From Candidimonas nitroreducens (GTDB taxonomy: Bacteria; Pseudomonadota; Gammaproteobacteria; Burkholderiales; Burkholderiaceae_B): a DNA stretch of 64,000 nt. Shown one piece after another: positions 1-12,430 of the stretch. Every line of letters starts with the position of its first letter. Within the stretch, counting starts at the first letter, position 1. The notes under the pieces are model-generated. The model was given only the letters and a program-made list of their open reading frames with translations, had not been told where the DNA came from and searched no databases. Where the stretch lies: assembly GCF_002209565.1 (NCBI RefSeq), contig NZ_NJIH01000011.1:186001-250000 (forward strand), given 5' to 3'. A program made the translations under genes and the position numbers.

Positions 1-700
1 AACGCTGTGATGTGATACGTGGCGCGATGGCGGCGATACTGAACGCAGCGATCGCGGGCCCTCCGGACAAGCATATGGGGTAGCCGATAGCGCGAACACC
101 TGTGACGACGGGCACGTCCATCATTGAATAGCCATGCCTACGCGTAACAGCCACGGTTTTCCGTATGGACTCGTCTGTAAATCCGGGAAAGCGGGCGATG
201 CGATCCGTATTGGCATCCATGGCTGCGTCCATCTCCGTATCCGACAACGTGGACAAAATGGCCATGCCACCTGCACCGATACCCAAAGGTCGCCGCGTCC
301 CGACATCAACCACGAATGTCTTGATCGGATAATGGCCTGCTCTACGATCGGCACAGATTGCCTCTACGCCAACACGTACCATTAGAAATACTGTGTCTCC
401 GGTTTCATCGGCAATGGCAGTTAGTAAAGATGCAGCCGTGTCCCGCAAATCACCCTGTTCGGATCCCATCAGCCCGAGATAGAACGAGAGAGGGCCAAGG
501 TGATAGCGTTTGTCGTCCTCGGTTTGCATCAACATTTGCTCCGCCACCAGGCATTTAAGCAAGCGATGTGCCGTCGATCTGTCTAAGCCCGTGCTGGATA
601 TCAAGTCAACAAGCTTGGGCCCTTCCCGATTGCGAGACGCTACATCGCGCAATAGGGCGATCCCACGTTCCAGGGATTGTGTGCCTGATCTCTCAGTCAT
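1..700 (-). CDS. IclR-family transcriptional regulator (C-terminus cut by window edge)
   Basis: An open frame runs without a stop from the ATG at 698-700 to the window edge, giving 233 codons of a protein that usually has about 250-260. Residues 1-75 look like the IclR winged helix-turn-helix (MTERSGTQSLERGIALL, then TGLDRSTAHRLLKCL as the recognition segment). The rest resembles the IclR effector domain, including a GVEAICADRR segment and, late, SMMDVPVVTGVRAIGYPI. IclR proteins are dimeric, effector-responsive regulators, often of catabolic operons. It diverges from the MmgE/PrpD gene at 829 across a 128-bp AT-rich gap, so it probably controls the 829-10865 genes and itself (inference). The effector cannot be told from the sequence. 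The true stop lies outside the window. Confidence 0.87.
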   Translation of the reverse strand, partial: MTERSGTQSLERGIALLRDVASRNREGPKLVDLISSTGLDRSTAHRLLKCLVAEQMLMQTEDDKRYHLGPLSFYLGLMGSEQGDLRDTAASLLTAIADETGDTVFLMVRVGVEAICADRRAGHYPIKTFVVDVGTRRPLGIGAGGMAILSTLSDTEMDAAMDANTDRIARFPGFTDESIRKTVAVTRRHGYSMMDVPVVTGVRAIGYPICLSGGPAIAAFSIAAIAPRITSQR

Positions 701-828
701 AAGTTTCCTAATTTCTTACATAGCAAGATTAAATTGTAGATCATCTAATTTAATAAGATCAAAATTCGGTCTGTACTTGGAATATCAATAAATAGATATC
801 TCACTATGTAAGATTATGGAGAATTAAT
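701..828. promoter_or_regulatory. Divergent promoter/operator region between the iclR-type gene and the catabolic operon
   Basis: This gap is much more AT-rich than its surroundings. A 10-bp sequence, tcttacatag at 714-723, recurs as its exact reverse complement, ctatgtaaga, at 804-813. The two copies sit at nearly equal distances (about 14-15 bp) from the two divergent start codons. Near the middle is an imperfect palindrome: attaaatt at 728-735 and aatttaat at 747-754, with tagat-c-atcta between. Such symmetry fits binding sites for a dimeric regulator or mirrored promoter elements; which one is inference. Confidence 0.55.
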
Positions 829-2223
829 TTGAGCAGTTTGAGTTCTTCCGCCGCCAAATGGTTTCTTGCTCTCAGCTACGACGATCTGCCCGTGGACATC
901 GTCGAGGAGACACATAGGGCAATCTTGAATACGATCGCAGTGGCAACCGCCGCCAGTGTGTTGGAGTACGGCTCACCTGTATGCGCCACAGCCAAAGATC
1001 TAGGCGGGATAGGTTCCGCGCATTTGTTCGGCTCGGGTGAGAAGACTTCTGCATCAGCTGCAGCCTTCGCAAATGCCACCATGTCAGCTGCTTTGGCCTA
1101 CGACGACTCGCATACCGAAACTTTAATCCACGTCTATGGCACCATCGTGAGCACCGTTCTGGCACTTGCACAGCAGCATGCGATCGATGGCAAGGAAGTT
1201 CTCACGGTCGTGGCTGGTGCCAGCGAACTGACATGCCGAATAGGTATGATCGCGCCGACCGCATTTCATCGAAATGGACTGCATCCCACCGGAATAATTG
1301 GTGCCTTCGGCGCGGCCTATGCGGCCGCGCGTTTGCTGCGTCTGTCCTATACGCAGACGGTTCACGCTATTGGAATCGTGGGGAATCTCGCATCGGGGAT
1401 AAATCAATGTTGGGTCGACGGAACTTGGTCTCAGTTGCTTGACAACGGCTGGGCTGCCCAGGCTGGGATCACCGCGGCGACGATCGCACGCCACGGCTAT
1501 ACCGGCCCCTCCGAAGTCCTCGAGGGCAAGCTGGGCCTGTTTCGCAGCCATATTCAACAGCCCGGCTATCCCTTCGATTTCGATTGCATGATCCACGATC
1601 TTGGCACCCACTGGGAGATGCGCGAGATTGAAATCAAGCCTTATCCATGTGGCCACGTCAGCCAACCTTTTGTCGACTGTGCACTCTCTTTGTACCGCCG
1701 CGGCTTGAAACACGAAGACATTGCATCAGTCACCTGCTTAGTGTCCGATTGGATGGTGCCTGTCGTCTGCGAGCCCTTGGAACGCAAACGGCGTCCAACA
1801 ACGGCTTGGCATGGTCGCGTCAGCCTGCCTTACACAATAGCCGAAACCTTATGGTTCGGTCGACTCGACGCCGAAAGCTACCGATCCGAGTACCTTGCAT
1901 CGCGAGAGCTTCTCGAATTGGCGGATCGGGTCAGCTATGAAATCGATACCAGCGTCAGGGGGGGGCGTACTTACAAGGGCTGGGTACGAGTGACCACGCA
2001 CGACGGTCGCTTGCTAGAAGAAATCAAATCCGAAGAAGATAGCTGCAAGCATATGCCGCGTGAAGTATTCCTCGACAAAATCCGGTGCTGTCTGCGCACG
2101 GGCGGCATCGAAGATCGCCATGAAGCACTGGTAGCCGCCGTGGAAAGACTGAATGACGCATCTTCCATAGTCGAAGTGATGGCAGCGTGTGACCCGACAT
2201 CGAGTCTGAAGGGAGGAAAGTAA
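829..2223 (+). CDS. MmgE/PrpD-family protein A (first of a tandem pair)
   Basis: A 464-residue protein of the MmgE/PrpD fold, which includes 2-methylcitrate dehydratase, cis-aconitate decarboxylase and iminodisuccinate epimerase. The start is TTG at 829, preceded by GGAG at 818-821; no in-frame ATG is better placed. Visible family features are YDDSH (91-95), FHRNGLHPTG (146-155) with H152, and IKPYPCGH (269-276) with K270. It departs from the family where a Lys and nearby His are normally found: residues 201-206 read SQLLDN, so Q202 and D205 replace them. The usual HPG after the DDSH segment is HVYG (101-104). It is 1 bp from the next, paralogous gene. The reaction is unknown; a dehydratase, decarboxylase, epimerase or isomerase acting on a polycarboxylate are all possible. 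Confidence 0.85.
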   Translation: MSSLSSSAAKWFLALSYDDLPVDIVEETHRAILNTIAVATAASVLEYGSPVCATAKDLGGIGSAHLFGSGEKTSASAAAFANATMSAALAYDDSHTETLIHVYGTIVSTVLALAQQHAIDGKEVLTVVAGASELTCRIGMIAPTAFHRNGLHPTGIIGAFGAAYAAARLLRLSYTQTVHAIGIVGNLASGINQCWVDGTWSQLLDNGWAAQAGITAATIARHGYTGPSEVLEGKLGLFRSHIQQPGYPFDFDCMIHDLGTHWEMREIEIKPYPCGHVSQPFVDCALSLYRRGLKHEDIASVTCLVSDWMVPVVCEPLERKRRPTTAWHGRVSLPYTIAETLWFGRLDAESYRSEYLASRELLELADRVSYEIDTSVRGGRTYKGWVRVTTHDGRLLEEIKSEEDSCKHMPREVFLDKIRCCLRTGGIEDRHEALVAAVERLNDASSIVEVMAACDPTSSLKGGK

Positions 2224-2224
2224 C

Positions 2225-3637
2225 GTGGCCTTGACTCAGTCCTTAAACCGCCAACTGGCTGTCTGGGCCTCTAATCTCGATTTGCGCAAGGTTCCTCCTG
2301 AGGTCGTCCATGCAACCAAGCTGAGGATTCTTGACATTGTGGGCGCCATGTTGGGTGGCTTGGATACAGAATTGGTTCAACAAGTGAGCGCCGCGACCCC
2401 CCCGTCGGGTGCACCGGATGCCGTTGGTCTCCCGGGCTTTGATATCCGCACAAACGCCAGAGATGCCGCCTTATTGATGGGCACGATGGCTTGCGTAATC
2501 GAATATGACGATTCGCATGTCTCGACCGGCGTACATCCGGGTTCTCCCATTGTTGCGACCGCGTTAGCGCTAGGCCAGCATCTCGACGTTTCCGGCAAAC
2601 AGCTGATCCGTTCCGTCCTGCTTGGTAACGAGCTCACATGCAGGTTGGGGCTGGTTGCTCCGGGCGCTTTCCATCGCGTGGGTTTTCATCCGACGGGAAT
2701 GGTGGGCGCGTTCGGTGCCGCATATACAGCGGCAAATTTGTATGGGCTGAATACAGAAGAAATACAGAACGCGACTGGTATCAGCGGTAGCTTCGCGTCT
2801 GGAATCATGGCATCTTGGGAAGACGGCACATCGGCCAAGTCTCTTCACGCCGGCTGGGGGGCGGCGGCAGGCATCGAAGCGGTGCGCCTCGCTTGTCATG
2901 GCGTGACCGGCCCCGCCGGCGTCTTCGAAGGACGGTTCGGCTTCTATCGCGCGCACGTCCAGAATTCGGATTGGATGCCTGATCATGGCGCAGCGGTGAG
3001 CGGCCTTGGCGAGCGATGGGAACTGCTCAATATCGCGCCGCGCGCTTATCCCTGCGGGCATTATATCCAGCCATTCATAGACGCTGCGCTATGGATCGCT
3101 CAACACAAACATTACGATCCAGCAGACATCAGCAAGGTCGTGTGCCTAGTCGCAGACTACATGGTGCCGCTTATCTGCGAGCCGGCGGCAGAGAAAGCGC
3201 GACCGATGACAACGTGGCACGCTCGCTACAGCTTGCCCTTCTGCATCGCCGAATGCTTGCTGTCTCGTAGCTTTACCAAACATAGTCTTTCCCCGAGCCA
3301 GTTGGTGGATCACGCTCATACCGTGCTAAGTGGCAAGGTCGGGTATGAGGTCAATTTAGCAGACGCAGACAGGGCTAAATGGAGCGGGGAAGTACGCGTC
3401 ACACTACACGACGGTAGTGTTCTCAAGCACCGCATAAATCATATGCGCGGTACCCCAGAAAACCCCATGACTGAAGAAGATCTCATGGCGAAGTTTATGG
3501 GTAATGCTCAGCACATAATCGCGCCGCAGATAGCCGAGGACTTCGTCGATCGCGTTATGAGACTGGAAAACCAGGAAAACGTCCGAACCACGCTGTCCTC
3601 AATCTGCCGCCCAGGCGGCATTGCTGATCTCAAATAA
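2225..3637 (+). CDS. MmgE/PrpD-family protein B (second of a tandem pair)
   Basis: A 470-residue MmgE/PrpD-family protein, clearly a paralogue of the preceding product (shared FHR-x-G-x-HPTG-x-x-GAFGAAY block). The start is GTG at 2225 with a strong GGAGG at 2212-2216, inside the end of the upstream gene, so the two are probably translationally coupled. It keeps DDSH (95-98), HPG (104-106), FHRVGFHPTG (149-158) and the canonical AKSLHAG (204-210) with K205 and H208. At the second usual lysine site it has R273 (PRAYPCGH) where protein A has K270. Thus each paralogue is altered at a different conserved site. Substrate and reaction are unknown; it may work with protein A as a hetero-oligomer or in a successive step. 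Confidence 0.87.
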   Translation: MALTQSLNRQLAVWASNLDLRKVPPEVVHATKLRILDIVGAMLGGLDTELVQQVSAATPPSGAPDAVGLPGFDIRTNARDAALLMGTMACVIEYDDSHVSTGVHPGSPIVATALALGQHLDVSGKQLIRSVLLGNELTCRLGLVAPGAFHRVGFHPTGMVGAFGAAYTAANLYGLNTEEIQNATGISGSFASGIMASWEDGTSAKSLHAGWGAAAGIEAVRLACHGVTGPAGVFEGRFGFYRAHVQNSDWMPDHGAAVSGLGERWELLNIAPRAYPCGHYIQPFIDAALWIAQHKHYDPADISKVVCLVADYMVPLICEPAAEKARPMTTWHARYSLPFCIAECLLSRSFTKHSLSPSQLVDHAHTVLSGKVGYEVNLADADRAKWSGEVRVTLHDGSVLKHRINHMRGTPENPMTEEDLMAKFMGNAQHIIAPQIAEDFVDRVMRLENQENVRTTLSSICRPGGIADLK

Positions 3638-3652
3638 TCAAGGAGACTCCAA

Positions 3653-4618
3653 ATGAAGCCAATCTTACCCCTCGCGCTTATGTCCTTTGCAATGGCCTTT
3701 ACGTCATCGCAAGCCGCTGACATCTATCCGTCGCGTCCTATCACCTTGGTGGTGCCAGGGCCCGCAGGCGGCGCCATCGACAACCCAGCGCGAATCCTTG
3801 CCGAAGCTATGGCCGAGAAACTTCATGGGAGTATGGTCGTGCTAAACGCCTCTGGTGCTGGAGGCACGCTCGCGACCGGCAGGGTAGCGCACTCTAGCCC
3901 CGATGGTTATACATTATTGTTTCATCATATTGGTGTTGCTACGGCGCCAGCGCTGTATAAGAAGCTACCTTACGACACACTCAAAGACCTCGCACCTATT
4001 GGCCTGTCGACCGAGGTACCGCTGATCGTCATCGCGCGCAAGAATCTTCCGCCGCACAACGTCAAGGAGCTCATGCCGTATCTAAAGAAGCTAGGCCCAA
4101 AAATTTTGTTGGCAACCGCTGGCCCAGGCAATGTTTCCGACCTCTGTGGCACTTTGCTGATGTGGAAGCTCGGTGACAAATTCACCACTGTGCCGTACCG
4201 CGGTTCTCCCCCGGCCTTGCTGGACATGATGAGCGGACGAGTGGATCTGATGTGCGATCAGACCAGTACCGCTGCATCTCAAGTCAAGGCGGGCGCCGTC
4301 AAGGCCTACGGCGTGGCGTCGAAGTCCCGCCTGCCTTTGCTGCCGAAAGTGCCAACGCTCGCGGAACAAGGTCTGGACTTCCAGTTCTCGATTTGGCAAG
4401 GGTTCTATGCCCCGGAGGGAACTCCTTCAGCCATTATCTCCAAGCTTTCGAAAGCGTTGCAGGCCGTCATCCAAGAGGACAGTGTCAAGAAGCGCTTAGA
4501 AGCCTACGGCATAACCACAGTGGATCCCTCGCGCGCGACTCCGCAGGCGCATACAGCATTCTTGAAAGAAGAGCTCAAGAAATGGGCCGACCTGTATAAA
4601 AACTCCCCCAAGCATTGA
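3653..4618 (+). CDS. Bug-family (TctC-type) periplasmic solute-binding receptor
   Basis: A 321-residue receptor of the tripartite tricarboxylate transporter family. It begins with a signal peptide (hydrophobic residues 4-16, likely cleavage after SSQA-A) and continues with the diagnostic YPSRPITLVVPGPAGGAID start of the mature domain, then SPDGYTLL and LPYDTLKDLAPIG. RBS is AAGGAG just upstream. Bug receptors bind carboxylates and other small acids in the periplasm and normally hand them to a TctAB membrane pair; no such pair is present here, a common situation in Bordetella relatives. Operon position directly after the MmgE/PrpD pair suggests that it captures the pathway substrate. Confidence 0.93.
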   Translation: MKPILPLALMSFAMAFTSSQAADIYPSRPITLVVPGPAGGAIDNPARILAEAMAEKLHGSMVVLNASGAGGTLATGRVAHSSPDGYTLLFHHIGVATAPALYKKLPYDTLKDLAPIGLSTEVPLIVIARKNLPPHNVKELMPYLKKLGPKILLATAGPGNVSDLCGTLLMWKLGDKFTTVPYRGSPPALLDMMSGRVDLMCDQTSTAASQVKAGAVKAYGVASKSRLPLLPKVPTLAEQGLDFQFSIWQGFYAPEGTPSAIISKLSKALQAVIQEDSVKKRLEAYGITTVDPSRATPQAHTAFLKEELKKWADLYKNSPKH

Positions 4619-4628
4619 GGGGATACAG

Positions 4629-5477
4629 ATGAGCCTAGAAAAAGCTGACGACGGCGTCGAGTACGAAATTTTGGCGATCCGCTATGCGACTACTAAATCG
4701 CGTCAAGTCCGTGATAACTTCATCAGTACTCACGACCTGCATGATGGCCCAATGCCCATGGATTTTTTCGTCTGGGCCGCGATACATGGCGATCGCGTGA
4801 TCTTGATCGACGGCGGAAGTGATGAAGAAACCTGCACGCGTCGAGGCTACCAGTTCTTGCGTTGCCCGGCCCAGGCCCTCGCGGGGCTCGGCTACGCCCC
4901 AGAATGCGTGACGGATCTGGTGATTACGCATATGCATTGGGATCACCTAGGAAATCTGGAGAAATTTCCCAAGGCTCGGTTCCATGTGCACAAGAGAGAA
5001 ATCGCGCATGCTACTGGTTGCGCTATGTGCCAACCAACCTTGCGCCGCCCCTATGACGTCAGTCAAGTATGCAGCGTGATCAAGGCGCTATACGCGGACA
5101 GAGTGCAGTTCAACCATGGGGAAACCCGCATCGCTCCGGGAATTACGCTGCACCATGTGGGTGGACATACACCGGGCTTGCAAGTAGTTCGAGTGCGCAC
5201 ACGCCGGGGTCATGTAGTGCTCGCCTCCGATGCCTTGCACTTCTATGCCAATTCGCTACTAAGCAACCCCTTTCCGGTAGTCGTTGACGTCCAGGACTAC
5301 CTGGAGGCGTTTCCGAAGATCCGGGGTTGGGCCGACTCATCAGATCACATTATTGCCGGACATGATCCGGTAGTCATGAGTATCTATCCACCGTGGTCAG
5401 AATTCAGCCGCGACATTGCCGTCAGGCTGGATGTCCCGCCCAAAGGCGAGCCTACGTCGCTTCTGCCCGTTGCGTGA
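4629..5477 (+). CDS. Metallo-beta-lactamase-fold hydrolase, AHL-lactonase-like
   Basis: A 282-residue cytoplasmic hydrolase. The zinc signature is complete: H101-M-H103-W-D105-H106, followed later by HVGGHTPG, an Asp in LASDAL and AGHDP, the order seen in N-acyl-homoserine-lactone lactonases and related dinuclear-zinc lactonases. ATG at 4629 lies 10 bp after the Bug gene, in the same operon. In this catabolic context it more likely opens a lactone or hydrolyses an ester intermediate than quenches quorum signals, but that is inference. Length and motif order fit the family. Confidence 0.85.
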   Translation: MSLEKADDGVEYEILAIRYATTKSRQVRDNFISTHDLHDGPMPMDFFVWAAIHGDRVILIDGGSDEETCTRRGYQFLRCPAQALAGLGYAPECVTDLVITHMHWDHLGNLEKFPKARFHVHKREIAHATGCAMCQPTLRRPYDVSQVCSVIKALYADRVQFNHGETRIAPGITLHHVGGHTPGLQVVRVRTRRGHVVLASDALHFYANSLLSNPFPVVVDVQDYLEAFPKIRGWADSSDHIIAGHDPVVMSIYPPWSEFSRDIAVRLDVPPKGEPTSLLPVA

Positions 5478-5522
5478 GCGAGATGCATAAGCATTAATTT
5501 TTGATTTATACGGAATATTGTA

Positions 5523-6971
5523 ATGAATGAATCCATATCAACGATTCAGGGCCTACCTCCGACGGGCTCGCTCATCAACGGCAAATGGCTGACATCCAAT
5601 CGTGCTTTTGACGTTCTGGATAAGTTTTCCGGGGGCGTGATTGAGACAGTGGCCGAGGCCGACCGTTCGCAGGTTGCTCAGGCGGTTCAGACGGCGGCAC
5701 AAGCGGCCCTTTCCGGCCCTCGCCCACCGTTTGAGCGCGCGACCGTGCTTCGCAAAGCGGCCTCTTTGATGGAGGGCTATCGACAGCGGTTCGTCGACAT
5801 CATGGTTGGCGAAGCCGGCTTTACCATCGCCGATGCCAGTGGGGAAATCGATCGAGCCACCGTTACGCTTAATCTTTCCGCGGATGAAGCCTTGCGTCTG
5901 ACGGGTGAAATGGTTCCATTCGGTGCAAGCCCAGGTGCGCATCGTCGTTTGGGTTTTACGCTGCGCTTCCCGATAGGGGTAGTGTGCGCTATCACACCCT
6001 TCAATTCTCCACTCAATACTGTGCTGCACAAGGTCGCACCCGCGTATGCGGGCGGTAACGCCGTAATCTTGAAGCCGTCGGCCTTTACGCCACTTACTGG
6101 CGCGTTATTGGGTGAGCTACTGCTCGAAGCTGGAATGGAACCGGAGTTTCTCTCAATAGTACAAGGGGGCGGCGATACAGTCGGGGCTGCACTGCTCGAG
6201 GAACAGGCCATCAATTTTTATACCTTCACCGGAAGTACAAGGGTCGGCCGAATCATCCAGCAAGCAGCCGGCTTGCGCCGCACACAAATGGAACTGGGTA
6301 GTATTGCCAGTACTATCGTTTGCGCCGACGCGGATTTGGAGCGCGCGATACCCAAAATCGCTAACGCAGGGCTACGCAAAGCCGGCCAGGTGTGCACTTC
6401 AGTGCAGCGGCTGTATGTTCAGCGCCCGATATTTGACGAAGTGACAAAGAGGCTGGTCGAATTCGCGGCGACTCTGCGTGCGGGGGATCCCCGTGATCCA
6501 GCAACTCGTGTTGGCCCGTTAATTACAGAGCAGGCGGCCATCCGGGCAGAATCCTGGATCGAAGAGGCGCGTGCACGCGGCGCTCAAATCTCGTGTGGGG
6601 GAAAGCGCACACGCTCAATCATAGATCCGGTTGTCATCACTGATGTGCCAGATGATGGGCGGGTATGGTGTCAGGAAGCGTTCGCTCCGCTATTGGTTTT
6701 ACGTCCCTTTGATGACTTCGAAGGCGCCATGAACGGCGCCAACGATACCCCGTTCGGCCTGTCTGCGGGTGTCTTCACTCAAGACATCGGCCGCGCCCTG
6801 CAAGCCGCCCATACCTTGCGGTTCGGCACAGTTCAAATCAACGAATCGTCCAGCGCCCGATCTGACGTGATGCCTTTTGGCGGAGTGAAGGACAGTGGCT
6901 TCGGCAAAGAAGGGCCGTCCTACTCGATCCGAGAGATGACCGAAGAACGTCTCGTCATCTTCAATCCTTAA
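5523..6971 (+). CDS. NAD(P)-dependent aldehyde dehydrogenase
   Basis: A 482-residue member of the aldehyde dehydrogenase superfamily. The catalytic set is visible: N161 in ITPFNSP, K184 in ILKPSA, the FTGSTRVG cofactor turn, E257 in MELGS, and the nucleophile C291 in KAGQVCTS. It oxidises an aldehyde to an acid with NAD(P)+. Next to an iron-type alcohol dehydrogenase, it suggests an alcohol-aldehyde-acid or aldehyde-forming aldolase step within the pathway. The start at 5523 has only a weak Shine-Dalgarno (GGAAT), and the 45-bp gap before it is AT-rich. Confidence 0.94.
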   Translation: MNESISTIQGLPPTGSLINGKWLTSNRAFDVLDKFSGGVIETVAEADRSQVAQAVQTAAQAALSGPRPPFERATVLRKAASLMEGYRQRFVDIMVGEAGFTIADASGEIDRATVTLNLSADEALRLTGEMVPFGASPGAHRRLGFTLRFPIGVVCAITPFNSPLNTVLHKVAPAYAGGNAVILKPSAFTPLTGALLGELLLEAGMEPEFLSIVQGGGDTVGAALLEEQAINFYTFTGSTRVGRIIQQAAGLRRTQMELGSIASTIVCADADLERAIPKIANAGLRKAGQVCTSVQRLYVQRPIFDEVTKRLVEFAATLRAGDPRDPATRVGPLITEQAAIRAESWIEEARARGAQISCGGKRTRSIIDPVVITDVPDDGRVWCQEAFAPLLVLRPFDDFEGAMNGANDTPFGLSAGVFTQDIGRALQAAHTLRFGTVQINESSSARSDVMPFGGVKDSGFGKEGPSYSIREMTEERLVIFNP

Positions 6972-7001
6972 TGCAGACAGGGTTTTTTACGGGGCTTCAT
7001 C

Positions 7002-8162
7002 ATGCTAAATGACATCTCCAGTTTTTTTTGTCCGACGCGCTTGTATATGGGCGTGGGTGCATATGTGCAGCTTGCAGACGTGATCCGTGTCAGTGGTTGC
7101 AAACGCATGTTTGTAGCACTGGACGCTGCATTGTTAGAGAGCGAATTTTATACGCGAGTGCGAAAGCTGCTGGAAGGATCGGGAGTAGCGATACAGCTTT
7201 TCAGCGATATCGAGCCCGATCCCAGTGTAGCCACGGTTGAGAAAGCCTTCAACGCCTGTAAATCTCATGAGGCGACAATGTCCTTGGCGATTGGGGGAGG
7301 TAGTACGATCGACGTCGCAAAGGCCGTGGGGATTCTATCCACGAATGGTGGCCGAATCCATGACTATGAGGGCATCGAAAAGTATTCGAAGCCGCCGCTG
7401 CCGCTGATCGTACTTCCAACTACCGCCGGTACCGGCTCAGAAGTCTCGGGATCTTGCGTGATCACCGATACCGAGAAGAATCTGAAGATGTCGATTCGTC
7501 ATGCGGCTTTCAACCCAGCATCGATCGCCATTCTCGATCCACTGGCCTTGCGTACCGTACCTGCTCACGTCGCGGCGCACTCGGGCATGGACGCGTTTGT
7601 CCATGCGTTTGAATCCTTTTTGTCCAGATTGGCAAATCCAGTGACAGACGCAATAAATATCCGAGCATTGGAATTGATTGCCGCCAATATCCGGCAATTC
7701 GTCGCCAATCGGGAGAATCTGCAAGCAGCGCTGAACATGTTGTGCGGATCTGCCTTGGCTGGCATTACTTTCGGTCAAACGGGCTTGGGAAATGTCCATT
7801 GCATGGCCCGATTTGTTGGTGCGTACTTCCATCTTTCACATGGCTTGTCGAATGCAATCTGCCTGCCGCAAGTGGCCCGCTTCAACATGATAGCCAACCC
7901 AGCCAAGTATGCTCGCGTCGCTTGCGCCATGGGCCGCCCGGCGCACGGTATTCCGCAGCTCGATGCCGCGGCCATGGCCATCGAGGCAATCGACTCTTTG
8001 TGTCGCGATCTAGGTATTCCATCTCGACTACGGGACGTAGGGGCAGAGCCCGAGGTATTCGATGAAATGGCCGAACTGTGCATCAAGGCCGGATACAACC
8101 GTTGGAATCCACGGCACACGACGACAAAAGATTTTCGGTCGCTACTCGACCATGCTTATTGA
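7002..8162 (+). CDS. Iron-containing (group III) alcohol dehydrogenase
   Basis: A 386-residue protein of the Fe-ADH/maleylacetate-reductase superfamily. The nucleotide motif GGGSTID is at 98-104, followed by the TAGTGSE segment (141-147). The four metal ligands expected for the family are seen: D197 and H201 in HSGMDAFVHAFES, H266 in GNVHCM and H280 in LSHGLSNA. It should catalyse NAD(P)-dependent alcohol/carbonyl interconversion in the cytoplasm. Close relatives include 4-hydroxybutyrate and lactaldehyde dehydrogenases; the substrate cannot be set. It lies 30 bp after the aldehyde dehydrogenase gene, so the two likely act in sequence. Confidence 0.92.
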   Translation: MLNDISSFFCPTRLYMGVGAYVQLADVIRVSGCKRMFVALDAALLESEFYTRVRKLLEGSGVAIQLFSDIEPDPSVATVEKAFNACKSHEATMSLAIGGGSTIDVAKAVGILSTNGGRIHDYEGIEKYSKPPLPLIVLPTTAGTGSEVSGSCVITDTEKNLKMSIRHAAFNPASIAILDPLALRTVPAHVAAHSGMDAFVHAFESFLSRLANPVTDAINIRALELIAANIRQFVANRENLQAALNMLCGSALAGITFGQTGLGNVHCMARFVGAYFHLSHGLSNAICLPQVARFNMIANPAKYARVACAMGRPAHGIPQLDAAAMAIEAIDSLCRDLGIPSRLRDVGAEPEVFDEMAELCIKAGYNRWNPRHTTTKDFRSLLDHAY

Positions 8163-8248
8163 ATTGGCGCATAAGCGCGATGCAAGCCTAGCGACACCTT
8201 CTGAATAATGAAAAGCGTCGCTCATATAAAACACAAGGAGACATTATT

Positions 8249-9241
8249 ATGCGAGTAGCCAGCACGTTACGGCAACAGTTTCGTAATCTCATAAGCATTG
8301 GTATGGCCGTCGGAATTTTATTTTCGGGCGCTGCGCGGGCGGCCGGATACCCGTCCCGACCTATTACATTGATCGTCCCCTACGCCGCGGGTACCAACGC
8401 AGATATGCTAGCTCGTGAGGTGGCGCCGCGCATGGGAGCACGCCTGGGTCAGCCTATCGTGGTGGTCAACAAACCAGGAGCAGGTGCCATCATTGGCACT
8501 CAGTCTGTGGCACAGTCGGCGCCGGATGGCTATACGCTGCTGTTCGGCGCCACGCAGACAGCGATTAATCCTTCGCTGTACAAAAAACTACCATATGACA
8601 CGATGAAGGCCCTGCGACCGGTCGTTCGTGTATCCAATCAGCCGATGGTCATGGTCATCGACAAGTCGATGCCCGCGCGCACTGTATCCGAGTTTGTCGC
8701 CTATGCAAAAAAACACCCGGACAAGCTCAATTACGCGGACACTGGCACTGGCAATTCGGTGCATTTGGCTGGAGCTTTCTTCACATCGGAGAGCTCGGTT
8801 CGGATACAGCGCGTGTCCTTCAACAGCTTTGGAGATCTGATGAGCGGAATGATGCGTGGGGACATCAATTTGCTCTTCTATCCGTATCAGGCCGTCGCCG
8901 GCCAGATTTCAGCTGGCTCCTTGCGTGCTTTGGCAACTACGGGTGACAAGCGTGCAGCATTTCTCCCAAACCTGCCCACGATGGTCGAACTGGGCTACAA
9001 AGGATTTGTACTGCCCGCCTGGCAAGGCATCTTCGTACCAGCCAAAACACCAGAATCTATCGTAGATGCGCTCTACCACTCTGTGGCCGATGCATTGAAA
9101 GATCCAAAAGTGCAGGAAAAGTTCCTGAAGACGGGTACCGAGGTGCGCGTCGAGTCACCACAGCAATTCGAGAAATTTTTCCAGGAACAAGTCAATAAAT
9201 ATCGAGGCTTGGTCAAGATGACCGGCGCCACCGTGAATTGA
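8249..9241 (+). CDS. Bug-family periplasmic solute-binding receptor (second in the island)
   Basis: A 330-residue TctC/Bug-type receptor. ATG at 8249 is preceded by AAGGAG at 8235-8240. A signal peptide (hydrophobic stretch about residues 15-30, cleavage near ARA-AG) leads to YPSRPITLIVPYAAGTNAD, then SAPDGYTLLFG and LPYDTMKALRPVV, all typical of the family. It is distinct from the Bug protein at 3653, so the island may take up two compounds or one with a backup receptor. No TctAB permease is nearby. It follows an 86-bp AT-rich gap that may hold an internal promoter (inference). Confidence 0.93.
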   Translation: MRVASTLRQQFRNLISIGMAVGILFSGAARAAGYPSRPITLIVPYAAGTNADMLAREVAPRMGARLGQPIVVVNKPGAGAIIGTQSVAQSAPDGYTLLFGATQTAINPSLYKKLPYDTMKALRPVVRVSNQPMVMVIDKSMPARTVSEFVAYAKKHPDKLNYADTGTGNSVHLAGAFFTSESSVRIQRVSFNSFGDLMSGMMRGDINLLFYPYQAVAGQISAGSLRALATTGDKRAAFLPNLPTMVELGYKGFVLPAWQGIFVPAKTPESIVDALYHSVADALKDPKVQEKFLKTGTEVRVESPQQFEKFFQEQVNKYRGLVKMTGATVN

Positions 9242-9255
9242 GGGGGTAAACGAGG

Positions 9256-10131
9256 ATGAAAATTGAAGTTCATAAGTATGGACGGCCTCTTGGGCATGAG
9301 ATATTGGGCGTCGACCTCAGCACCGGCATAGACGAGACAGATCTCAACCAGATCAAGGCTGTTTTTCATGAATGTGGTGTCGTGGTGCTGCGAGGCCAGC
9401 ATCTGACGCCAGACGAGCAGGTCTCATTCAGTAAGCGGCTTGGCGATCTAACGCATTACATGATCAACGATTACCTTTTACCGGGATATCCAGAGATATT
9501 CGTCGTTTCCAATATTATTGAGAACGGCAAGCCGATCGGATTGGAAGATGCAGGCAGTACTTGGCACAGTGACATGTGCTTCAGTGAGAACCCGCCTTAC
9601 GGTTCACTACTCTATGCGTTGGAGGTGCCAACCAAAAATGGGAAGGTGTATGGCGATACTTTATTTGGCAGCACACAGGCTGCCTACGATGCATTGCCGC
9701 AGTCAATGAAGCATCGCTTGGAAGGATTGAAGGTGGTGAACAGCTATGGTCGCTATATTGCCGGCAAGAAGGTAGCGAAGGTGCAAACCACGGGGGAGAA
9801 GAGTGCTGTGTTGAGGTTTGATATGCCCCCCGACATCGCGCAACCCCTCGTTCGGCGTCATCCCATCACTGGCCGCTGCTGTTTATATTTGAGCCAGGGA
9901 CTGTCTCATGAGATCGAGGGTTTGCCGGAGACGGAAAGTAAGGCATTGATTGCCGAACTTCTGGAGCACATGACCAGGCCCGAATTCACATATCGCCACA
10001 GCTGGCGTGTTGGCGATCTAGTTCTTTGGGACAATTGTTCCGCAATTCATCGCGCTACAGTGGATTATGCTTTGCCGCTGCGTCGCCTAATGTATCGAAC
10101 CACGCTCGCAGGACTGGGGAGGCCTCAATGA
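9256..10131 (+). CDS. TauD/TfdA-family Fe(II)/2-oxoglutarate-dependent dioxygenase
   Basis: A 291-residue non-heme iron oxygenase. The facial triad is H104-x-D106 in STWHSDMCF and distal H265 in NCSAIHRAT; arginines in LPLRRLMYR (276-277) are placed to bind the 2-oxoglutarate carboxylate. Family members hydroxylate taurine, sulfonates, aryloxyacetates, carnitine precursors and others, often cleaving a C-S, C-O or C-N bond by making an unstable hemiacetal-type product. In this operon it could start degradation of an ether, amine or sulfonate and yield an aldehyde for the aldehyde dehydrogenase, but the substrate is unknown. Its stop overlaps the next start (ATGA). Confidence 0.9.
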   Translation: MKIEVHKYGRPLGHEILGVDLSTGIDETDLNQIKAVFHECGVVVLRGQHLTPDEQVSFSKRLGDLTHYMINDYLLPGYPEIFVVSNIIENGKPIGLEDAGSTWHSDMCFSENPPYGSLLYALEVPTKNGKVYGDTLFGSTQAAYDALPQSMKHRLEGLKVVNSYGRYIAGKKVAKVQTTGEKSAVLRFDMPPDIAQPLVRRHPITGRCCLYLSQGLSHEIEGLPETESKALIAELLEHMTRPEFTYRHSWRVGDLVLWDNCSAIHRATVDYALPLRRLMYRTTLAGLGRPQ

Positions 10132-10865
10132 ACGATGATGCACAGCATATCCGCAAGGATCTCGCCGCATGCTATCGCCTGGTCGCCCACTATGGTATGA
10201 CCGACGTGATCTACAACCACATTACAGCCAAACTGCCGGGCCCCGAGCCGTTATTTCTTATCAATGGATTTGGATTGCACTACGATGAAGTGTGCGCGTC
10301 AAACCTCTACACCGTCAACCTGGCAGGTGATATCGTCAATCAGCCAGCAAGTATGACTTACGGCATTTCGCGTGCGGGCTACGTTATCCATGGTGCCATC
10401 CATGCTGCCCGGGAAGATGTGAAATGCATCATCCATACCCATACACGGGCGGGCTTGGCCATTTCGGCCATGAAAGAAGGTCTCATGCCGTTGACACAGA
10501 CGGCCATGCGGTTTCATGGGCGTATCGCCTATCATGATTACGAAGGCCCGGCTGTGGATGCTGGCGAGCAACGCAGATTGGTTGCCGATCTCGGGCCACA
10601 TAACGTCATGGTGTTGCGCAACCATGGGCTGCTGACATGCGGCAGCAGCATTGCGGAGGCGTTCAACCTGATGTGCTGGCTTGAGAGCGCTTGCCAAGCT
10701 CAGGTCAGCATTCTGTCCATGGGCAGGGAACTAACATTTCCTCCCATGGACGTTGTTGAGAAAACAGCTCATCTGTATGACCCTTCGGTACGTCATTTTG
10801 GATACTTAGAGTGGGCCGCGTTGCTTCGGATGCTAGATCGGACTGATCCGTCATATCAAGATTGA
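10128..10865 (+). CDS. Class II aldolase/adducin-family protein
   Basis: A 245-residue class II aldolase-domain protein. ATG at 10128 overlaps the dioxygenase stop as ATGA and has GGGGAGG at 10116-10122; a longer in-frame extension reading into the dioxygenase gene is not credible. Zinc-site histidines are H103 and H105 in IIHTHT and H166 in RNHGLL. Family members are zinc-dependent aldolases such as fuculose-phosphate aldolase, 3-oxo-tetronate 4-phosphate decarboxylases and 3-hydroxy-acid decarboxylases. As last gene of the operon it may cleave or decarboxylate a hydroxy/keto acid made upstream. Substrate unknown. Confidence 0.88.
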   Translation: MNDDAQHIRKDLAACYRLVAHYGMTDVIYNHITAKLPGPEPLFLINGFGLHYDEVCASNLYTVNLAGDIVNQPASMTYGISRAGYVIHGAIHAAREDVKCIIHTHTRAGLAISAMKEGLMPLTQTAMRFHGRIAYHDYEGPAVDAGEQRRLVADLGPHNVMVLRNHGLLTCGSSIAEAFNLMCWLESACQAQVSILSMGRELTFPPMDVVEKTAHLYDPSVRHFGYLEWAALLRMLDRTDPSYQD

Positions 10866-11074
10866 CATTTTGGAAGTCACGCAGCTGGCACGGCAGGCAC
10901 GTTCCCGGCCCCGACTGTCAGGAACAATGGTCGAGTGCATGGAAGTGCATGGACGGTATTGGGACAAGCCTGATATGAGCTAGTCGCTGCGAGAATGGCA
11001 GCTTCACTTTGTCTCGCTATTTATATCGCCTGCAGCTGTTGCTATGTTGGTTGGCCTATATATGACGGAGACCG
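10866..11074. other. Intergenic boundary between the lower-GC island and the pob block
   Basis: Base composition changes sharply here from the AT-richer island to the GC-rich pobA gene. It contains a short tandem duplication (gtgcatggaa/gtgcatggac) and a 6-bp-stem hairpin tgacgg-aga-ccgtca at 11063-11077 overlapping the pobA stop. No gene, integrase remnant or att-like duplication was recognised. Confidence 0.5.

Positions 11075-12430
<1,356 letters not shown>

Follow-up and report, generated by a model that had tools for sequence, protein, structure and literature searches.

Tandem MmgE/PrpD paralogues of Candidimonas nitroreducens with conserved, differing active-site changes that fit altered specificity better than a split active site

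The 64,000-nucleotide stretch of Candidimonas nitroreducens DNA analyzed here (contig NZ_NJIH01000011.1, positions 186,001 to 250,000; hereafter the window) begins with two head-to-tail genes for MmgE/PrpD-family proteins, A and B. An initial annotation observed that each protein has lost a different one of two conserved active-site lysines. Does this complementarity mark a hetero-oligomer with divided roles, or two enzymes tuned to different steps? We find that the pattern is real, conserved, and mildly surprising, and that altered specificity fits it better than a split active site. With a probability of roughly 0.6, A and B would be two diverged, separately active enzymes that handle different compounds or steps of one catabolic operon, itself probably gained laterally. 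By analogy with solved relatives, each is probably a homodimer.

Active-site residues of A and B

Both proteins exceed the Pfam cut-off of 32.1 bits for MmgE_PrpD_N and MmgE_PrpD_C (178.5 and 70.6 bits for A, 202.9 and 94.5 bits for B). Their AlphaFold2 models (predicted local distance difference test, pLDDT, 93.1 for A and 93.7 for B; predicted template modeling score, pTM, 0.93) have the helical plus lid domain fold of iminodisuccinate (IDS) epimerase and cis-aconitate decarboxylase (ACOD1), with template modeling (TM) scores of 0.82-0.91 to 2HP0, 6R6T, 7BR9, and 7BRA, and align with both enzymes across almost their full length. For each model, the ten best PDB chains are cis-aconitate decarboxylase, Bacillus subtilis IRG1, and IDS epimerase, with TM scores on query length of 0.80-0.86 for A and 0.82-0.87 for B.

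Residues are numbered as in IDS epimerase, counted along the 2HP3 rows of the PDB alignments, on which H85, D88, Y145, H150, K198, and K266 coincide with their published numbers. The published active-site set of this enzyme comprises H85, D88, H99, H150, K198, and K266; these residues coordinate the dicarboxylate and are described as conserved in all members (PMC12290011, in the part available to us). At these six positions, A has A, A, H, H, Q, and K, and B has C, E, H, H, K, and R; at position 201, A has D and B has H. The set is therefore incomplete in both proteins, with H85, D88, and K198 missing from A, and H85 missing and Arg at 266 in B. The letters reported by the initial annotation (Q202, D205, and K270 of A; K205, H208, and R273 of B) were the same on re-reading, and the changes of A at H85 and D88, which had gone unnoticed there, add to them. 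Thus, A is without a whole subsite (H85, D88, K198, and H201) and keeps H101, H152 (the equivalent of His150), and K270. B has one conservative K-to-R replacement at 266, with C90 in the H85 column, E93 in the D88 column, and H104 as the catalytic His99.

The further proposal that both lysine sites belong to the active site holds. In alignments with PDB sequences, the positions map to K198, H201, and K266 of IDS epimerase, and a profile of 22 relatives aligned with human ACOD1 chains places the two lysines in the columns of its active-site Lys207 and Lys272. The human active site includes His103, His159, Lys207, Lys272, and Tyr318 (PMC12259180, in part), and docking to the B. subtilis protein named D91, H102, H151, K200, K266, and C271 (PMC7347537, in part).

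IDS epimerase (2HP0/2HP3) is the best single-sequence PDB match. It shares the fold (TM 0.85-0.91), His99, and His150 with A and B, but its H85, D88, K198, and H201 are absent from A, and in B H85 is absent and Lys at 266 gives way to Arg. The second base of IDS epimerase and methylsuccinate isomerase (Tyr145/Tyr148) is replaced by His in both proteins. Human and mouse cis-aconitate decarboxylase (ACOD1/IRG1, CAD) shares the fold and the His103 and His159 columns, at 19-25% identity over the structural alignments; however, A lacks the Lys207 equivalent, B lacks the Lys272 equivalent, and both have Gly in the His277 column, and neither carries Lys207, Lys272, and His103 together. The (S)-(R)-methylsuccinate isomerase of the PA0881 type belongs to the same family and has a proposed enolate mechanism (PMC12290011, in part), but of its set of His88, Glu91, Lys202, and Lys266, A has only a part and B an altered version. 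No itaconate-degradation-like gene was found among nine neighbors scanned with Pfam and NCBIfam. Finally, 2-methylcitrate dehydratase (PrpD/MmgE) has the same fold (TM on query length 0.69-0.84 against full-length chains) but only 14-17% identity, and the one NCBIfam PrpD equivalog model matched gave 36.7 and 37.8 bits (cut-off 950).

A contig search for A orthologues returned two loci. One, on a contig of a betaproteobacterial metagenome-assembled genome (L026; genome G507), encodes A′ and B′ (70% and 56% identical) in the same order and with the same active-site residues; with a B′ start at 2299, the two genes would be separated by 13 bases, and a Bug receptor gene then follows. The other (L027; genome G508) holds the first 232 residues of A″ (75% identical, Q and D kept), preceded by Bug, TauD, and aldolase genes, and then ends. 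A protein search of that genome found no close relative of B (best 37%); the contig end may explain the absence of one beside A″. The recurrence of these residues shows that they reflect neither decay nor sequencing error. Around Q202/D205, 25 of 26 positions are identical in A, A′, and A″, compared with 157 of 232 in the segment common to all three; for B and B′, the count is 18 of 19 around R273, compared with 258 of 470 overall. Equally conserved sliding windows, the stretches themselves counted, numbered 6 of 207 for the A stretch and 9 of 452 for the B stretch, so on these alignments both stretches are among the best conserved, though not unique. Between the two genomes, A is better conserved than B (70% versus 56%; proportion of nonsynonymous differences, pN, 0.215 versus 0.304, with the synonymous proportion, pS, near saturation), which argues against A decaying.

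A is rare. Among 268 genomes of the family searched with A (E ≤ 1e-95), matches came from C. nitroreducens, G944, G1010, and G994, the last two identified through their contig numbers and coordinates as the genomes that carry L026 and L027; A orthologues thus occur in 3 of the 268. Only C. nitroreducens matched among 369 genomes of the class (E ≤ 1e-90), and in a search of 101 genomes (E ≤ 1e-60), 14 had a match, the best besides A itself at 42%. With B as query, 399 genomes of the order (E ≤ 1e-80) yielded B itself and otherwise nothing above 40%. Plasmid records held no A orthologue at 60% identity or more, and beyond the window, L026, and L027, none was seen in the genome and plasmid searches.

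Base rates, descent, and tandem pairs

The family is large in these bacteria: the C. nitroreducens genome (5.6 Mb) has 30 members, G507 and G508 have 48 and 20 by protein search, and by Pfam search G064 has 71, G071 has 42, and four more genomes have 23-38 each. We scored 214 fetched members, after dropping eight rows (five named duplicates or fragments and three short sequences). Sampling was not random: we deliberately included the tandem loci of six genomes, the other G064 members came mostly from the top of the match list, some relatives were brought in by queries with A and B, and related sequences each count singly. Position 99 is His in 212 members, and position 266 is Lys in 207 and Arg in 7, so that all 214 have Lys or Arg there. 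K198 is kept in 180 members and replaced in 34; D/E88 is kept in 193 and missing in 21; H85 is missing in 63 and H150 in 40. The dicarboxylate clamp, supposedly universal in the family, is thus lost repeatedly while His99 and Lys/Arg266 stay, and we take the published set to describe the known enzymes rather than to define membership. Members without K198 accordingly look active with changed specificity. One of the two members without His99 (L137) also lacks K198 and K266. Of the 21 members without D/E88, 19 also lack K198, as expected if both residues serve one subsite, and A is of this class. Arg at 266 accompanies K198 only in B, B′, one protein of C. nitroreducens (L046, 8251-9660), and L117, and occurs with K198 lost in L006, L137, and L162; three of the seven (L006, L117, and L137) have no adjoining family neighbor in the match lists.

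In the tree, A and B fall within one clade of nine (support 100/99) and are not sisters. B groups with the canonical protein L011 of genome G043 (100/99; 39-40% identity) and A with a canonical protein of its own genome, C32:305736 (97/89, or 88/87 once the G944 relative was added; 42% identity). Plasmid proteins of Sphingomonas sp. JE1 and Azotobacter salinestris are further canonical relatives in this clade. All four share this well-supported clade with A and B, yet all keep K198, H201, and K266. In the stretches seen, no MmgE/PrpD gene adjoins any of these four; for C32, one lies about 5 kb off. Because A and B each group with a canonical relative, each site changed separately, which does not fit a simple duplication with later division of one site. 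With the active-site columns masked, the tree requires at least 8 changes at D88, 11 at K198, and 6 at K266. The stem of A is long, at 0.9-1.0 changes per column, and the tips are short, at about 0.25, as might be expected had the enzyme turned to a new function and then retained it.

A tandem pair in G944 (L208) bears on the order of events. Its second gene encodes a protein 40% identical to A that, by eye, has Q at 198, I at D88, Q at H150, and H at 201, and that groups with A with moderate support (92/76); Q at 198 may therefore predate the pairing of A with B. The partner protein carries M at 198, retains K at 266, and belongs to another lineage (28% identical to B).

Outside this pair and A′/B′, the scored loci contain 29 tight same-strand pairs from nine genomes. 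All four lysines are kept in 20 of them, and the complementary K198/K266 pattern occurs in one, A/B itself. We also considered whether a canonical member paired with a degenerate one is a general rule and rejected the idea: K198 is missing at 10 of 58 pair positions compared with 34 of 214 members overall, and comparing the counts showed no enrichment (a protein in an array counts once for every pair it belongs to; of the ten, L164 166-1581 aligned poorly and was left out of the 214). Two other pair types recur. At L152, L156, L161, L163, L149, L092, and L078 (seven genomes), both members of one pair type have H85, D/E88, H99, H150, K198, and K266. At L148, L150, L132, and L159 (four genomes), a canonical member is paired with a protein in which Arg replaces K198 and Trp replaces H201, the L159 pair being 1.2 kb apart.

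Two enzymes or one divided site

The chemistry proposed for the family uses a His as base and holds the enolate by one or both lysines (PMC12290011, in part). Both proteins keep this reaction center: His99 (H101 of A, H104 of B), His150, and a cationic residue at 266 (K270 of A, R273 of B). In A, the second carboxylate-binding subsite would have been rebuilt through H85A, D88A, K198Q, and H201D. Lacking the far clamp, A should accept a substrate whose far end is no carboxylate, and D205 could interact with a hydroxyl, an amide, or an amine. B retains most of the clamp (E93, K205, and H208, with C90 at H85), and its Arg beside the forming enolate would preserve charge while being a poor proton donor. 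The lactonase-like, dehydrogenase, and dioxygenase products encoded nearby would fit the breakdown of an imported, hydroxylated or branched acid.

Of the two readings offered by the initial annotation, tuning to different steps is thus the one that the evidence favors, whereas complementarity as the sign of a divided hetero-oligomer fared poorly. The two losses are unequal, a whole subsite in A and one conservative K-to-R in B, and neither kind is peculiar to pairs, given 34 and 7 occurrences among 214 members and three K266R proteins without a family neighbor. The pair counts, the tree, and the G944 pair, in which the relative of A has Q198 beside a partner that keeps K266 and itself lacks K198, do not support a split site. 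The active site sits at the junction of the helical and lid domains, and in human ACOD1, Lys272 makes inter-domain contacts with Asp93 and Lys421 (PMC12259180 and PMC7347537, in part); read by analogy as lying within one protomer, these contacts would leave no obvious route for a lysine of one subunit to repair the other.

A rival reading has A and B associate, obligately or by preference, as a heterodimer through the dimer interface common to the family, with two different active sites, each specialized for one step, and perhaps with handover of an intermediate. Gene order makes it possible: the one-base gap noted initially agrees with the open reading frame (ORF) coordinates (A ends at 2223, B begins at 2225), a GGAGG-like site for B sits inside the end of A, translational coupling is likely, and the order recurs in L026 at 56-70% identity. 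Solved relatives, moreover, are dimers that share one interface (PMC7347537, in part), and a looser pair of a K266R protein and a K198-less one occurs in the same genome. Because the complementary pattern is found in only 1 of 29 tight pairs, the A relative of G944 has a partner of another lineage with K266 kept, and another gene separates the looser pair, we regard such a heterodimer as unlikely. More doubtful is the specific version in which a shared dimer of A (no second clamp, Lys at the enolate) and B (clamp, Arg) runs consecutive steps; searches of open-licence PMC text brought up no title or abstract opening that describes a hetero-oligomer of this family. That A is a non-catalytic partner or regulator of B seems improbable. 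The loss of H85, D88, K198, and H201 would suit that role, but H101, H152, and K270 are kept, the rebuilt loop is nearly invariant across three genomes, A is the better conserved protein, and of the ACOD1 residues whose replacement by alanine abolished (H103, H277) or reduced (H159) activity (PMC11814083, in part), A keeps the equivalents of H103 and H159, though not of H277. Least credible is neutral drift among redundant paralogues; with 30 members in the genome and replacements at these sites not rare, drift has room, but identical states in orthologues at 56-75% identity, and a low pN against a near-saturated pS, hardly suit it.

Several observations weigh against two separately active enzymes. 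Replacement of the enolate lysine by Arg could weaken catalysis in B. Both proteins have Gly in the column of His277, which is essential in human ACOD1, although not conserved in B. subtilis IRG1 (PMC7347537, in part). The two genes are adjacent in both genomes where this is visible, as a hetero-oligomer would also explain. The looser pair (L046, on C29 of the same genome) combines K266R at 8251-9660 with D88S, H150R, and K198V at 5882-7213, the two separated by one ORF of 343 aa; two complementary-looking neighbor pairs in one genome may exceed chance, with numbers too small to say. Relatives of the 5882-7213 protein were limited to itself in 300 genomes of the order (E ≤ 1e-60), and plasmids held none at 60% or more. 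The coupling of D88 and K198, for which a naive Fisher test on the 214 related rows gives p of about 5e-16, shrinks on the tree to five independent pairs (on average 3.2 changing the same way and 0.0 the other way), which cannot reach significance, and we use it only as a hint. The probable lateral gain, lastly, draws on base composition and rarity.

A is a conserved exception to the clamp set, and should it turn over a substrate that lacks the second carboxylate, the range of chemistry known for this large and mostly uncharacterized family would widen. Together with B, the canonical C32 protein, and the G944 pair, it offers matched proteins for probing clamp loss.

The surrounding operon

Seven more same-strand genes follow B (3653..10865; Table 1), and judged by sequence, the regulator, receptors, hydrolase, dehydrogenases, dioxygenase, and aldolase would form a pathway-like operon. 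For the IclR-type regulator, the best NCBIfam models are BhcR and PcaR/PcaU, both far under cut-off. The aldolase-like start was chosen by comparison with L027; the ORF list has 10026. The first 10 kb of the window have 53-56% G+C, compared with 60-71% beyond 12 kb and 59-70% per kb upstream of the regulator. Low G+C and the rarity of A suggest lateral gain, and the block of about 11 kb (window 1-10900) is probably a laterally gained catabolic block.

Table 1. Positions in the window of genes A and B, their active-site codons, and neighboring features
Feature	Position	Strand	Basis or remark
IclR-family regulator gene, divergent from operon, cut by window start	2..700	-	Pfam HTH_IclR, IclR_C
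A+T-rich region between divergent genes, presumed promoter/operator	701..828	.	sequence
Protein A, MmgE/PrpD family	829..2223	+	TTG start, 464 aa; PF03972 + PF19305
A87 and A90 of A, replacing H85 and D88 (codons 87-90)	1087..1098	+	alignment
A H101 (catalytic His99), kept	1129..1131	+	alignment
A Q202 ... D205, replacing K198 ... H201	1432..1443	+	sequence and alignment
A K270 (K266), kept	1636..1638	+	sequence and alignment
Protein B, MmgE/PrpD family	2225..3637	+	GTG start, 470 aa; PF03972 + PF19305
B K205 ... H208 (K198 ... H201), kept	2837..2848	+	sequence and alignment
B R273, replacing K266	3041..3043	+	sequence and alignment
TctC/Bug-type periplasmic receptor	3653..4618	+	PF03401; relative after B′ in L026, 67% identical
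Metallo-beta-lactamase-fold hydrolase, lactonase-like	4629..5477	+	PF00753; AidB/AiiA lactonase models far under cut-off
Aldehyde dehydrogenase	5523..6971	+	PF00171; among 25 NCBIfam models listed, none at cut-off
Iron-containing alcohol dehydrogenase	7002..8162	+	PF00465/PF25137; 0 of 15 NCBIfam models at cut-off
Second TctC/Bug-type receptor	8249..9241	+	PF03401; relative before TauD gene in L027, 61-62% identical
TauD/TfdA-type dioxygenase	9256..10131	+	PF02668; L027 relative 63% identical
Class II aldolase/adducin-like protein	10128..10865	+	PF00596 and NF005451 above cut-off

After the low-G+C block, a PobA-like flavoprotein gene, named by eye, lies at 11075-12421. TctC/Bug receptor genes number at least 150 in the C. 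nitroreducens genome (298 first-look candidates, 150 scored). Near A′/B′ in L026, a phosphonoacetaldehyde hydrolase gene (4845-5675; TIGR01422 above cut-off) lies on the opposite strand.

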